DNA from: Mrakia gelida
Taxonomy: Eukaryota > Basidiomycota > Tremellomycetes > Cystofilobasidiales > Mrakiaceae
Length of the DNA stretch: 64,000 bases
Direction of reading: 5' to 3'
NCBI GenBank assembly: GCA_024345305.1
Contig: BRON01000016.1
Location: 1,178,001 to 1,242,000 of the forward strand
Position numbers and translations under genes: made by a program. Shown in pieces: positions 57,895 through 64,000 of the stretch; the first letter of the stretch is position 1, and each line of letters starts with the position of its first letter. The notes under the pieces are model-generated. The model saw nothing but the letters and a program-made list of their open reading frames with translations, was not told the DNA's origin and made no database searches.

Positions 57895-58106
57895 CTAACG
57901 GTATGCGAGCCGTTCCAACGCGTTGGAACGGTCGTTTCCGTGGAGTCGACTCCACGGATCCGTGGAGTCCAAGCGTTCCAACAGACTCCACGGACTCCAC
58001 GGACTTTGCGTCGCTTCGATCTCCCTCCCCTCCGGACCGAATCGCAAGCGGGAAAGACGACCAGCAGGATCTACCCATGAAGCCCAATGTATCAGAAGCA
58101 CAGCTC
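57895..58106 (+). repeat. Palindrome-core element, copy A
   Basis: First of two elements with the same plan. Head CTAACGGTATGC at 57895-57906. Palindrome P1 at 57910-57931 (22 bp perfect, arm CCGTTCCAACG). Palindrome P2 at 57937-57958 (22 bp perfect, arm TCCGTGGAGTC). Then an 11-bp inverted repeat, CCGTGGAGTCC at 57960-57970 and GGACTCCACGG at 57992-58002, built from the P2 arm. It flanks another P1 arm piece, CGTTCCAAC, at 57974-57982. An additional P2 arm copy GACTCCACGG lies at 57984-57993. The tail (58003-58106) contains AATCGCAAGCGGGAAAGACG, ATGAAGCCCAATGTATCAGA and AGCACAGCTC. It sits about 450 bp upstream of the OrsD-like gene's proposed start. No long ORF of its own. A GTATGC...TATCAG pair (57901-58095) could be intron borders. 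Confidence 0.9.
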
Positions 58107-58557
58107 TTTATGATCCCTAACCCTTGACCCGATCTACTGTCAGAACCCTCTCGAGCTTCCTTCGAAAGCGACCTCAGCCAAACCTCCTTCCCCTTTGGAA
58201 CCGTCGCTGAACGAGCGCTCGAGAGACCTTCTCGTAGGATCCAAGTGAGTCTTTTGCTTTCCGCTATGGAGTTGGAGGTAGGGAGAGGTCGGAAAATGTG
58301 TGGCCTGCCCGGGGAGGGTTAGCGTTAGAGGGAGAGGGAAGGAAGGAAGGAGGAGAAGGAAGGAGGAGTTGCGAGCTCGAGCTGACCATCGTTCTTCCCT
58401 TCACCTCACTCGCTCTCCCTCCTTCCCCCTTCCCTCTCAGGTTCTTTCTTTGATCACGTATGTTCGTCTCGCATACATCAATCTTCTCATACCATCCCCC
58501 CACCACTTGGCTCTGTTCTGACTCTCGATTGGCCTTCTCTCGTTCGTGCTCGAGCAG

Positions 58558-60779
58558 ATGAGCTTCTCCTGCCCGAAGTTGTTGTGCAACACTCTACCAC
58601 CGTTCTCCTCTCGATCTCAGCTCAACCAACACACCAAAGATCGACATCAAGCCGAAGTCCTTCTTGCTGGAGGTTTCCGAGGTGAGCTCTCTCTTTCTCC
58701 ATACGTCTCGCTTCCCACCGAACGAAGCACGAAGCTCATCTCCTTCCCTCCCTCTCTCCTTCCTCCCTCCCTCTCTCCTGACCTTCCCTCTCAGTTCTTC
58801 GTGGAGACGATGGTTCCCTAACCTGCCCTCGACCTCACTCCCACCCCCACCGATGCTCCAAGCCCTTCGCCCTACACAAACACTGGAAGACATGTACAGT
58901 CACCGAACCTCTCCATCCGCTCTTCCCTTCTCCTCTCGTTCACTCTCCCTCTCCCTCTCCCCAACCCGACGCTCTCCCTCCGCCAACCCAGGATCAGCAG
59001 GAGGAGGAGGAGACCGCTCACCTAGGGGACGGGGAAGGGTTTGGTTCTGGGATGGACGAGGGGGAGGAAGAGGGAGACACCGAGGGAGGTGGTGGCGAGG
59101 GAGTTGGAGGGAGTGCGAGTGGGTCGAGCTTGAGTGGGACGAGGAAAAGGAATGAACGCGAGGTTGTTGATGGGAGAGAGGGTGGTGGTTGGGAGGATGG
59201 GAACCTTCCAGAAGGTGGAGGGGTTGGTGCTGCATGCGGGATGGATGGAGTTGAGGGCGAGGTCTCTGCGGACGATGGTGAGTCTCTCTCTCTCGGTCAC
59301 TCTTGTTTGCTCTGCTCTCTCGATCGAGAGTATGGACTTGTGCTGATCCTCCAACCCTTCTTCCCTCCATCAGGCTCAACAGAAACGGTGCCAAGAGACG
59401 ACGAAGCTCGGGTCGGAGGCTTCAGGAGACTCGACGTGGAAGGACTCGTCGCGTTTTGGAAAGGAGAGAGCCTCGCTTGTTCGTCCTTCATCTCCTTTTC
59501 CCCAATTTCGTTTCCCGACCCTGACCTCTCTCTCTCCATTTCTCTCTCTCTCTCTCTCTCAGCCACGACCAGCCTCCACGCTGCTTCTCTAGCCATCAAC
59601 ACAAGGATCGGTCTCGTCGTTTCCACCCACGAGGACCCGTACGGAGGAGGAGTCGCACCATCCGGCCTCACCGCTCACCTACTCAAGTTCTGCCCTTCCC
59701 TCCCCTCCTCCCATCGAAAAACCCTCGTTCAAGAAGCAACCCATCTCCTCAATCTTGCACCTTCCCTCCACCACTCCATCTACGGTCCCCTCTCCGATCG
59801 GACACTCGCAAGTCAGCTGCTCCTCTCCAGACGGCCCACCTCGACCTTCCCTATGGTCGAGGGCATCGCCGTGAGGATGGGAGTAGGGTGTGGGAGCTGT
59901 GGTGTGGTCTGCAAGGATGGCGACTCTCTCCGAAGCCACCGTCACAAGAAGCACGGAGGAACGAACCTCGCTCCCACTCCCGCCTACTCCCAACGACTCT
60001 TCCCTGACACTCACCTCCCCGCTTTCGCCGTTCCTCCTCCCTCCCACGAATCGACCAACCTCGTTCCTCCTCCCCCTCCCAAGGTCCCACGATCGGATCC
60101 CCTCTCGGCATCAGCAGCCTTCCTTCTCAAGCAGCAGAACGAGATACTCTCCTCCCTTCCCATCCCCAGCGACAAGCTCGACAATTCCCTCTACCATCAA
60201 CCAGTCTACCAGAACCCTCTCGGCTACGGCTCCTTCATCCGACCCTACCCTCTCGCCATCCTTCGCTCAGCCATCTCCCCCGCCCACAACTACCGATCCT
60301 CGGACAAGACTCGAATCGAAGACCGCGACCCTCTGCGAAACGTCTGGGTCCACGTTCAGGATCTCGCCTTAGGAGTTCGGAAGTACGGGACGAATCCGAG
60401 CGAGTTTGCTGTGGCGAGGAAGATCGGGATGGGGGACGGGTCGGTGCAGATCTCGGAGGACATGGTCGAGGAAGAGCGAGGAGGGAAGGGACCGACGAGG
60501 ATCTTCAAGCCGCGGCTCGCGGATTCGACCCTCAAACGATACAGCAGGGATTCAAGCTCGCTCATCCTCTTTGCCCTCAGGGTCACGCCAACGGTCTACC
60601 GAAACCCCATCCCCATCCCTCAGGGCGAGCTCGCACCTCCTCCAATCATCTCCCCTCCTCCCTCCTCCTCCTCCTTCACCACCTCCATCGACCTTCCCTC
60701 CTTCCACACCACCGAGCGGATGGTACTCGCAGCCAACACCCTCCGTCAGGTCCTCCAGAGGGACGTCCTCGCCCTAACC
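58558..60779 (+). CDS. C2H2/OrsD-type protein, telomere-linked-gene-like; 3' end interrupted
   Basis: Begins MSFSCPKLLCNTLPPFSSRS with a C2H2-like finger (CPKLLC ... HTKDRH). After an intron comes a second finger-like segment, LTCPRPHSHPHRCSKPFALH, ending KHWKTC. A Glu/Gly-rich acidic linker (about 59005-59278) follows. After the CT-rich intron comes TRIGLVVSTHEDPYGGGVAP, then SGLTAHLLKFCPSLPSSHRK and VGCGSCGVVCKDGDSLRSHR with HKKHGG (about 59890-59960). This spacing matches the OrsD (DUF3505) double zinc-finger module. Further on, PRLADSTLKRYSRDSSSLIL resembles the segment after OrsD in basidiomycete telomere-linked proteins. The frame then meets element B at 60774. Additional exons may precede 58558 (exon-like 58144-58241 and 58441-58515, whose phases do not join cleanly). 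Role unknown; nucleic-acid binding likely. Confidence 0.6.
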
Positions 60780-60986
60780 GTATGCCGTCCGTTCCTGCTA
60801 GCAGGAACGGGCCTCTGCGTACCCTCGAGGGTACGCATGCGTACCCTCCGACCGTTCCTGGCGCCTTTCCGGAGGGTACGCAACCTGCGCGGCTTCGTTC
60901 CTCCCTCCCCTCCCAACCGAATCGCAAACGGGAAAAACGTCCAGCGAGATCTACCTATGAAGCCCAATGTATCAGAAGCACGGCTC
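60774..60986 (+). repeat. Palindrome-core element, copy B (inside the OrsD-type gene)
   Basis: Second copy, aligned to copy A with a single one-base length difference. Head CTAACCGTATGC at 60774-60785. P1 at 60789-60810 (22 bp perfect, arm CCGTTCCTGCT). P2 at 60816-60837 (22 bp perfect, arm TGCGTACCCTC). Inverted repeat GCGTACCCTCC at 60839-60849 and GGAGGGTACGC at 60871-60881. P1-arm piece CCGTTCCTG at 60852-60860. Tail 60882-60986 with AATCGCAAACGGGAAAAACG, ATGAAGCCCAATGTATCAGA and AGCACGGCTC. Every part lies at the same offset from P1 as in copy A (27, 50, 63, 82 bp), though the stem sequences differ. It interrupts coding sequence after LRQVLQRDVLALT. Confidence 0.9.
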
Positions 60987-61213
60987 CGTACGAGAAGATC
61001 TGCATCGCCGATAGCGATTCTCCCGAGAGGTACCTCAAAACGAAGGAGAGGGCGAGCTCGAGCTGACTTCCGCGAGTTCTTTTCGGAGGAGCTCCATCCT
61101 CTCTCTTTTAGCTGCACTGTATATTCAAGGCCGAGTTCCTGCTATGCGAAGAGCTAGGGCCGTTGATTAGTAGCTCTAGTATGTCCGGTATAAAGGGCTT
61201 AGCTCTAGAGTGA
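60987..61213 (+). pseudogene. Coding remnant downstream of element B
   Basis: Right after the element a frame reads PYEKICIADSDSPERYLKTK-ER. An intron-like stretch (GAGCTGAC branch, TTTTAG at 61106-61111, but a GC rather than GT start) leads to LHCIFKAEFLLCEELGPLIS, continuing SSSMSGIKGLALE and TGA 61211-61213. It looks like the original 3' end of the OrsD-type gene. Its phase does not match the upstream frame using the GTATGC/TATCAG pair of element B, so the gene appears disrupted unless another splice is used. Confidence 0.45.
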
Positions 61214-62275: not shown

Positions 62276-64000
62276 GTGTCGCTCTAGCTGCTTTCTTTGA
62301 GGAGTTGGGAGTGCTTGCGAGTGGGTGTGAGATGGTGGACGCGCTCTTTGACGGCTACTAGAACATGAACGGGCGCACCTATATACTCGCGGGCATACGC
62401 GATCAAAAGGGAATCAAAAGCCTGTTTGATCCATCTATGACCCGAGGTGATCTACATCAGATGGAAGCGATCGATCTAGGACTTCTCCTCCAGTCGCGTC
62501 CTCCCTTCTTCCAGCCAAGTTCGACTTGCTCAAATCTTCTCTGAGCTGATCGAAACCAATTCGGATCATCTCTAGTAGTCTTGACGGTTCTCCCAATTTA
62601 TTCGGTGCCGCTCCAGCTGCTCTGGGTCCGAAGTTAAAAGTGTTCGTAAGTGGGTGCGAGATGGTGGACGCGCTCTTCAACGGCTACTAGAACATGAACG
62701 TGACCACCTGTATACTCGCGGGCATATGCGATCGGAAGGGAATTGAACGTCGGTTTCAACTATATATCACTCGAGGTGATCTATACGAGATGGAAGCGAT
62801 CAATTCGGGACTTCTCCTTCCAGTCACGTCCTCCCTTCTTCCAGCCAAGTTCGACTTGCTCAAATCTTCTCTGAGCTGATCGAAACCGATTCGGATCATC
62901 TCTAGTAGTTTTGACGGTTCTCCCAATTTATTCGGTGCCGCTCCAGCTGCTCTGGGTCCGAAGTTAAAAGTGTTCGTAAGTGGGTGCGAGATGGTGGACG
63001 CGCTCTTCAACGGCTACTAGAACATGAACGGGCGCACCTATATACTCCCGGGCATACGCGATCAAAAGGGAATTCAAATTCGGTTTCAACTATGAATCAC
63101 TCGAGGTGATCTATACGAGATGAAAGGGATCAATTCGGGACTTCTCCTTCCAGTCACGTCCTCCCTTCTTCCAGCCAACTCCGACTCGCTCAAATCTTCT
63201 CTGAGCTGATCGAAACCGATTCGGATCATTTCTAGTAGTCTTGACGGTTCTCCCAATTTATTCGGTGCCGCTCCAGCTGCTCTGGGTCCGAAGTTAAAAG
63301 TGTTCGCAAGCGGATACGAGAGGGTGGACACGCCGTTTGACGGCTACTAAGACATGATTGAGACCACCTCTATACTCGTAGGTATATGCGATCGAAAGGG
63401 AATTGAAAGTCGGTTTCAACTATGAATCACTCGAGGTGATCTATACGAGATGGAAGCGATCAATTCGGGACTTCTCCTTCCAGTCACGTCCTCCCTTCTT
63501 CCAGCCAAGTTCGACTTGCTCAAATCTTCTCTGAGCTGATCGAAACCAATTCGGATCATCTCTAGTAGTCTTGACGGTTCTGTCAATACATTCGGTGTCG
63601 CTCTAGCTGCTTTTGTTGAGGAGTTGGGAGTGCTCGCGAATGGATGTAAGATGGTGGACGCGCTCTTCGACAGCTGAAACCAATTCGGATCATCTCTAGT
63701 AGTCTTGACGGTTCTCCCAATTTATTCGGTGCCGCTCCAGCTGCTCTGGGTCCGAAGTTAAAAGTGTTCGTAAGTGGGTGCGAGATGGTGGACGCGCTCT
63801 TCAACGGCTACTAGAACATGAACGGGCGCACCTATATACTCGCGGGCATACGCGATGAAAAGGGAATTCAAATTCGGTTTCAAGTATGAATCACTCGAGG
63901 TGATCTATACGAGATGGAAGAAGTCGTTTCGTGATCCCTTGTTCATGTTGCGTCCTCTCCCCTCTTGTGCCAGTTCGACTCACTCAAATTTTCTCTCAGC
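62276..64000 (+). repeat. About 330-bp tandem satellite, continuing beyond the window
   Basis: Units beginning at the string GAACATGAAC (or variant) start at 62361, 62690, 63020, 63350 and 63814, giving spacings 329, 330, 330 and 464. A partial unit precedes the first. Each carries TATACTCGCGGGCATA, GATCGAAACC, TCTAGTAGTCTTGACGGTTC and GGCTACTAG. Two alternative right-hand modules exist. One has GAGGAGTTGGGAGTGCT (62299-62315 and about 63621-63637). The other has CTGGGTCCGAAGTTAAAAG (in the other units). The long fourth unit holds both in tandem. Short open frames occur on both strands, but the plus-strand frame has a TAG or TAA at the same place in each unit, so protein coding is doubtful. 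Confidence 0.88.

Follow-up and report, generated by a model that had tools for sequence, protein, structure and literature searches.

Fixed hairpin-bearing termini form the inner ends of chromosome-end units in Mrakia gelida

A 64,000-nucleotide stretch near one end of a Mrakia gelida contig (genome G000, C16:1178001-1242000; 34.86 Mb in 25 contigs), hereafter the window, contains two nearby copies of a sequence with nested palindromes, raising the question of what kind of element carries palindromes whose arms differ between copies and yet stay matched within each. A preliminary description, made from the sequence alone, reported copy A at 57895 and copy B at 60774 of the window, each with palindromes P1 and P2 and an inverted repeat of the P2 arm, here termed P3. 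All of these are present. The description took them for two copies of a self-contained element of about 210 bp; what it observed is real but only a small part of the whole. A and B are heads, the centromere-side ends of a subtelomeric repeat family, and form the inner ends of chromosome-end units of 3-12 kb that obey a junction rule.

A search of the whole genome with the pattern of the conserved tail, allowing up to three mismatches, yielded 73 places against none for the reversed-pattern control, so that the family has at least 73 copies in place of two. The P1 pattern occurred at 74 places genome-wide (control 0); 49 of the 50 such places listed are no farther than 60 bases from a complete head, and the other one is an incomplete copy on C13. 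A further copy on C17 has no tail match. Complete heads number 72, spread over 22 contigs, 70 of them within 35 kb of the contig end that they face and 71 facing the nearer end. TTAGGG or CCCTAA repeats terminate the contig ends of C7, C12, C15 (left) and C16, the other contig ends that were read stopping in subtelomeric sequence. The sequence at C1:1-384 matches the ccdA region of F-type plasmids of E. coli, with 98.7% identity and a match in 2833 plasmid records; the left end of C1 is probably library or vector contamination and so not a true chromosome end.

The terminus CTAAC-NN-TATGC is fixed across the 72 complete heads, which carry 64 distinct 20-base left flanks. Start variants are narrow, 72 of 73 copies beginning with CTAA(C/T/A) or TTAAC followed by two to three bases and TATGC. 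In the window, the forward-strand terminus of copy A (CTAACGGTATGC, 57895..57906) follows chromosome-specific sequence ending in ..TTTGCGTT, and that of copy B (CTAACCGTATGC, 60774..60785, also forward) is joined at ..GTCCTCGCC within the gene of unit A, the intact target of this joint reading ..GTCCTCGCC^CAGCC. The base preceding the terminus in the 64 distinct flanks was C in 39, T in 18, G in 6 and A in 1. The heads combine a constant centromere-facing end with a variable outer end, as do telomere-attaching retroelements.

Among the sequences examined, an uninterrupted copy of the flank was found for 43 of the 72 heads. Candidate target continuations starting with CTAA, TAAC or TTAACGG were discarded as being heads themselves, four heads at telomere tracts were left out and repeats were collapsed, giving 34 distinct sites; a single base separates two of these, C10:1577173 and C11:26103. 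With the joint C counted as a target base, all 34 distinct targets possess C at the joint (background 31%), matching the base with which the terminus starts. The motif YYC was found at 26/34 targets against 14.5% of subtelomeric positions, which served as background for the target motifs, CWG at 14/34 against 2.6% and YYCWG at 9/34 against 1.0%. Joints are therefore made at C, preferably in YYC^WG of the target, and this junction rule is new here. The target pyrimidines could derive from pairing with telomere-type GGG. The WG is lost from the product and hence not attributable to template pairing; it is therefore taken to reflect a preferred cut. Three target sites bear two different heads each (C16/C5, at window 60774 and C5:2052371; two on C4; C10/C11), which suggests hot spots or re-cutting.

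Copying onto new flanks has been recent. Unit B, which extends on the forward strand from 60774 to the end of the window at 64000 and for 861 bases more before ending in (TTAGGG)n, is identical to the unit at C15-left over 1706/1706 bases and over 399/399 telomere-proximal bases, the flanks being different. It likewise matches C7-left and C9-right over 1706/1706 bases each, and C15-right over 532/532 compared bases, all with other flanks. A block of two units (a 4058-bp unit, a 48-base telomere tract and the next unit) is shared by C12-right and C1-left over 4926/4926 compared bases, once more with differing flanks. Since units are identical from the head outward while their flanks differ, everything distal to the head is transferred.

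The sequence common to the units starts at CTAAC-NN-TATGC and runs on past the tail toward the telomere, for which reason a self-contained 210-bp element was rejected. The tail of copy A lies at 58021..58114 (forward), the family sequence ending after TTTATGAT, and that of copy B at 60901..60993 (forward); the repeat 58021-58113 is 87% identical to 60901-60993. In some units, B among them, non-coding sequence that includes a 330-bp tandem array occupies about 4 kb behind the head and leads to the telomere, a total of about 4.1 kb. Unit B is itself non-coding, with the array at 62320-63675. Other heads are followed by a gene region such as that found between A and B (58126..60773, forward), in which the open frame 58782-61154 crosses the junction with head B and gives weak, sub-cut-off matches to OrsD and C2H2; the helicase part of this region, downstream, was removed by head B. 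The corresponding region of a unit on C18 has an open frame that matches the DEAD helicase family with 27.7 bits (cut-off 26) and ResIII with 23.3 bits, the OrsD and C2H2 matches in the N-terminal part of the unit gene region being sub-threshold. A PDB search with the unit helicase returned HamB as its sole match (E 0.0029). The helicase gene points outward, and related gene regions adjoin many heads, giving the many telomere-proximal copies typical of telomere-linked helicases. In a C1 unit of 11.5 kb, read at its two ends, the start of the gene region lies at the inner side and a telomere tract ahead of the next head. A unit is the sequence from the head outward to the physical end, some units having helicase gene, array and telomere, at about 11.5 kb, and some array and telomere alone.

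Units follow one another in tandem, the outer side of each being cut short by the next head. The spacing of successive heads on one contig arm ranged from 362 to 12955 bases, with one further interval of 196964 (37 intervals). Two kinds of head join telomere tracts directly, and five adjoin short stubs of earlier heads, of 13, 21, 21, 42 and 142 bases. Both 21-base stubs end within P1 at CCGTTC(C), after which the common P1 arm continues with TG, making P1 itself a YYC^TG site (TTCC^WG). Short stubs are in modest excess: a uniform 4-kb model in which the cut is set at 140 bases gives a rough p of 0.014, the longest stub being 142. A polymerase stop at P1 is a possible cause of the stubs; a cut at TTCC^TG explains two of the five equally well.

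An internal unit lies at C15:1069024-1074490, where unique sequence is followed by a head with 5.4 kb of unit and then by CCCTAA repeats in left-telomere orientation, beyond which subtelomeric matches are limited to short pieces. On one reading, a broken chromosome gained a unit on its left side and telomere repeats on its right; alternatively, two chromosome ends may have fused. In unit A, CCCTAACCC, a telomere-type C-strand sequence at 58115..58123 (forward), lies at an internal deletion junction between the tail and the helicase-gene region. It is absent from other copies, whose sequence runs on uninterrupted there, and is perhaps a smaller event of the same kind as that on C15.

The hairpins lie immediately behind the terminus and were assigned to neither strand. 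In copy A, P1 (CCGTTCCAA-CGCG-TTGGAACGG, 57910..57931) is a perfect 22-bp palindrome and P2 (CCGTGGAG-TCGA-CTCCACGG, 57938..57957) one of 20 bp, or of 22 bp counting the flanking T and A. P3, identified from the sequence and from single-strand folding, spans 57960..58002 with arms at 57960-57970 and 57992-58002; its loop contains GCGTTCCAAC, a piece of the P1 arm, and an additional arm copy lies at 57984-57993. In copy B, where the sequence and the covariation test described below define the hairpins, P1 (CCGTTCCTG-CTAG-CAGGAACGG) lies at 60789..60810, P2 (GCGTACCC-TCGA-GGGTACGC) at 60817..60836 and P3 at 60839..60881, with 12-bp arms at 60839-60850 and 60870-60881 and a loop containing CCGTTCCTG of P1. 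Folding of both strands of A and B as single-stranded DNA gave z values of -5.2 to -6.4, none of 200 shuffles being as stable.

Over the 72 heads, P3 was perfect for 10 bp in every one, through seven arm types, and the P1 stem was kept in 69 (in one by a G-T wobble), two of the others being mosaic and one deleted. P2 was intact in 48 heads and mismatched in 24, 21 of which mix arms of two types. The preliminary statement that every change in an arm is matched in its partner therefore holds for A compared with B and fails for the family; the loss of complementarity in other copies, which was to count against it, is seen for P2 and clearly not for P1 or P3. Nor are the palindromes perfect throughout the family. 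For P1 the 22-bp palindrome is perfect in A, in B and in 42/72 heads, namely those with loops CGCG (29) and CTAG (13), and was rejected as a family rule; most of the remainder have a 9-bp stem with a free tetraloop. The other loops were CCTC in 20 heads, GAGG in 4, CCTG in 2 and GAAG in 1, so that one P1 loop, CCTC/GAGG, occurs in both orientations. The arms are also homogenised, b1' being the same as b2 in 67/72 heads. Inverted loop and homogenised arms are both expected of template switching.

A covariation test was made on 39 distinct heads, one of 40 being left out, with a structure derived from the same sequences. The proportion of paired cells was 95.0%, against 75.8% in shuffles and at most 45.6% with the partner slid, bearing out the earlier claim that arms change jointly across many copies. 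By part, pairing reached 99.4% in P1, 93.9% in P2, 99.1% in P3 and 61.5% in the P1 loop. Wobble pairs showed no strand bias for either strand. A pseudoknot between the 3' strand of P1 and the P3 loop was weak (93.2% paired against 89.0% in shuffles). An alternative pairing of the second with the third arm reached 99.7%, as good as P2 or better, and the exact fold thus has alternatives. The downstream sequence was long enough in 57 heads to build a tree, on which the arm type switches 15 times for P3 and 8 times for P1; hairpin modules are exchanged and re-made often, these counts being approximate through recombination.

Arm-to-arm template switching probably explains such covariation better than slow compensatory mutation, because the arm of P2 is also that of P3, through seven types, and because a P1 loop exists in both orientations. 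These features, together with the lack of strand bias in wobble pairs, make a copying mechanism that rewrites all arms the best fit among the ideas offered in the preliminary description. Spacer inversion and arm homogenisation have been described as marks of template switching between inverted-repeat arms (PMC8604942, available in part), and correction of quasi-palindromes by switching between arms has been reported (PMC8794818, available in part). The heads resemble these cases in both marks. They differ in that the described cases are single inverted repeats, whereas here at least four copies of an arm, within a span of about 55 bases, vary in concert and belong to a mobile end. That P1 and P3 stay constant where P2 breaks down suggests that selection acts on the former two. 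The hairpins represent a clear natural case of concerted change in many arms that can be mistaken for RNA structure.

A fixed terminus on unrelated flanks, a target rule, recent multiplication with new flanks and serial addition with outer truncation are best accounted for, with a probability of roughly 0.55, by DNA-templated, one-ended copying that begins at the hairpin head and transfers an entire chromosome end onto 3' ends left by a break or a cut. A chromosomal 3' end in ..YYC would arise by a break or a cut at YYC^WG and be joined through its C to the head of a donor unit, whereupon the donor chromosome end would be copied outward from the head, in one direction, until run-off. The recipient would in this way gain a new subtelomere and telomere. 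The hairpins may mark the start by exposing or cutting DNA there, P1 holding a target-like TTCC^WG; switching of template between the arms as they are copied would keep them identical, selection would maintain P1 and P3, and P2 would be dispensable. That the units constitute a new class of chromosome-end transposon, whose three-hairpin DNA terminus directs one-ended copying at YYC^WG and replaces any broken or cut end with donor subtelomere and telomere, is a bolder proposition and somewhat more apt to be wrong than right. If true, subtelomeres would spread like mobile elements, and chromosomes would have a second healing route beside telomerase.

Several observations weigh against one-ended copying. 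Heads within one genome are kin, and head counts are therefore not event counts. The head at C23:131293 faces the farther contig end, that at C15:1069024 lies 197 kb from its contig end, and the copy at C13:1348012 is devoid of a terminus and starts at P1. The two kinds of head attached to telomeres violate the junction rule. C7-left is only 91% identical to B near the telomere, though their first 1706 bases match. The loss of WG favours a putative cutting step, and a cutting or copying enzyme was not found. In the covariation test, whose hairpin structure came from the sequences tested, pairs changed on both sides were not in excess (18 against 18.3 in shuffles) and pair types numbered 28 against 37.7, two of five measures being no higher than in shuffles.

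Reverse transcription would produce a similar arrangement if telomerase, or the reverse transcriptase of a resident retrotransposon, copied an antisense subtelomeric RNA ending in ..GCAUA-NN-GUUAG(GG)-3' onto a chromosomal 3' end, as has been described for the Y' repeats of yeast and Ty1; P1 to P3 would then serve as a structure at the 3' side that the enzyme reads, and outer truncation would be the result of incomplete copying. The constant inner and variable outer end, the stubs stopping in or near P1, and a terminal C with preceding pyrimidines that fit pairing with the GGG at a 3' end of telomere type (T through a wobble pair) agree with this, as do two heads with two telomere-like repeats (C15:3906 and C2:3188123). 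Candidate enzymes exist: a TERT-like telomerase RNA-binding domain is encoded on C8 (73 and 33 bits in neighbouring frames), and 14 of the 20 PF00078 matches listed, counts being lower bounds, lie no more than 50 kb from a contig end, the majority of matches being in frames of some 1450 codons that we take by their size to be of long terminal repeat (LTR) type. However, the copied tract can cross an internal telomere into a second unit and would require a very long transcript, pairing does not explain the WG past the joint, and the wobble bias is lacking on both strands. Pfam scans of unit stretches (three frames of one gene region; PF07727 was not searched) revealed no reverse transcriptase. 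At C1:2140141-2140578 a non-LTR-like reverse transcriptase fragment, apparently frame-broken, stands beside a retrotransposon-like frame; its weak PF00078 match is not to TERT. A resident Penelope-type or other telomeric retroelement did not appear among the PF00078 matches, which are a minimum count. Reverse transcription is judged unlikely, while ranking next after one-ended DNA copying.

Less probable again is a hairpin-recognising nuclease or rolling-circle (HUH) transposase that cuts the head and transfers one strand, the unit being a relative of Helitron-like or REP/IS200-like elements with one-ended transposition to chromosome ends. A hairpin about 14 bases inside the fixed end, the YYC^WG preference and the TTCC^WG within the P1 arm where two stubs end would suit such an enzyme. 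Helitron_like_N, however, gave just two short partial matches in the genome, both on C21 with 31 bits, and none in the unit parts scanned; a Helitron also needs T beside its 3' end on the antisense strand, and A precedes the terminus in only 1/64 flanks, so that insertion between A and T is not the pattern and a Helitron was rejected on protein evidence and target base. The two C21 matches (206570-206731 and 233850-234011) are in opposite orientation, 27 kb apart and of equal score, possibly an inverted duplication. Last in order, and improbable, is ordinary repair of failed telomeres, in which eroded ends copy subtelomeric arrays by homology or by annealing of telomere motifs, like the telomere-attrition-induced replication of Pyricularia, and the head is just a telomere motif long since internal to the chromosome. 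The truncated arrays, which stand in tandem and include internal telomere tracts, the telomere-like CTAAC and the resemblance to Pyricularia arrays (PMC8381367, available in part) speak for it. Most joints, however, have neither telomere repeats nor left-side homology and yet share the same start base and YYC^WG; a fixed start and target motif at non-homologous joints is not expected from homology-driven copying.

Rfam gave no match over the 210 bases of either head, and a ribozyme or known structured RNA was rejected on this basis; 40 weak matches below the gathering score fell mostly in purine-rich sequence. At 58326-58441 a long purine/pyrimidine-rich inverted repeat of low complexity has microRNA-like Rfam matches on both strands, below the gathering score. 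Protein searches detected no relatives in other species at E <= 0.001 among 7989 scored candidates. The literature search revealed no description of this unit, which is weak evidence of novelty as subscription journals were little covered.

The spread of subtelomeric repeats with helicase genes from one chromosome end to another has long been a puzzle, for which homologous recombination is the usual answer. In the present case both ends of the spreading tract are visible, with a fixed hairpin terminus, a short target rule and recent identical copies on new flanks, and the reaction is therefore directly testable. The closest known systems, judged from sources available in part, are telomeric retroelements, the telomere-failure arrays of Pyricularia, Y' elements with Ty1, and subtelomeric helicase repeats. 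HeT-A/TART, MoTeR/FoTeR and Penelope-like elements lacking an endonuclease have a constant centromere-facing end, variable outer truncation and serial addition to chromosome ends. These retroelements encode or depend on their own reverse transcriptase, whereas none was found in the unit parts read here. In Pyricularia, 4-kb truncated subtelomeric repeats in tandem, with interstitial telomere borders, are copied onto deprotected ends (PMC8381367). Those arrays, in the portion of the account available, are bounded by telomere motifs; the units here have a fixed, hairpin-bearing terminus and a mostly non-telomeric joint. Y' elements, which code for a helicase, are likewise long units that amplify in tandem at chromosome ends. 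To our knowledge neither a hairpin terminus nor a YYC^WG rule is known for Y'. Their amplification is ascribed to recombination or to Ty1 complementary DNA, and Ty1 mobilises Y' elements in telomerase-negative S. cerevisiae cells. Y' RNA is enriched in Ty1 particles, and survivors contain Y'-Ty1 chimeras (PMC4700185, available in part). The subtelomeric RecQ-like telomere-linked helicase (TLH) repeats, including Ustilago UTASa, show the same full and truncated copies at chromosome ends. In Agaricus bisporus var. burnettii the subtelomeric RecQ genes number 19, with both complete and truncated ones among them (PMC7473861, available in part), and the TLH regions of F. oxysporum occur in full and truncated forms (PMC12857005, available in part). 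For the helicase of the present units the matches are to DEAD (27.7 bits against a cut-off of 26) and, in PDB, weakly to the single chain HamB. Absent from the available portions of the TLH descriptions are the features that distinguish the present units, namely the fixed inner terminus with covarying hairpins and the junction rule.

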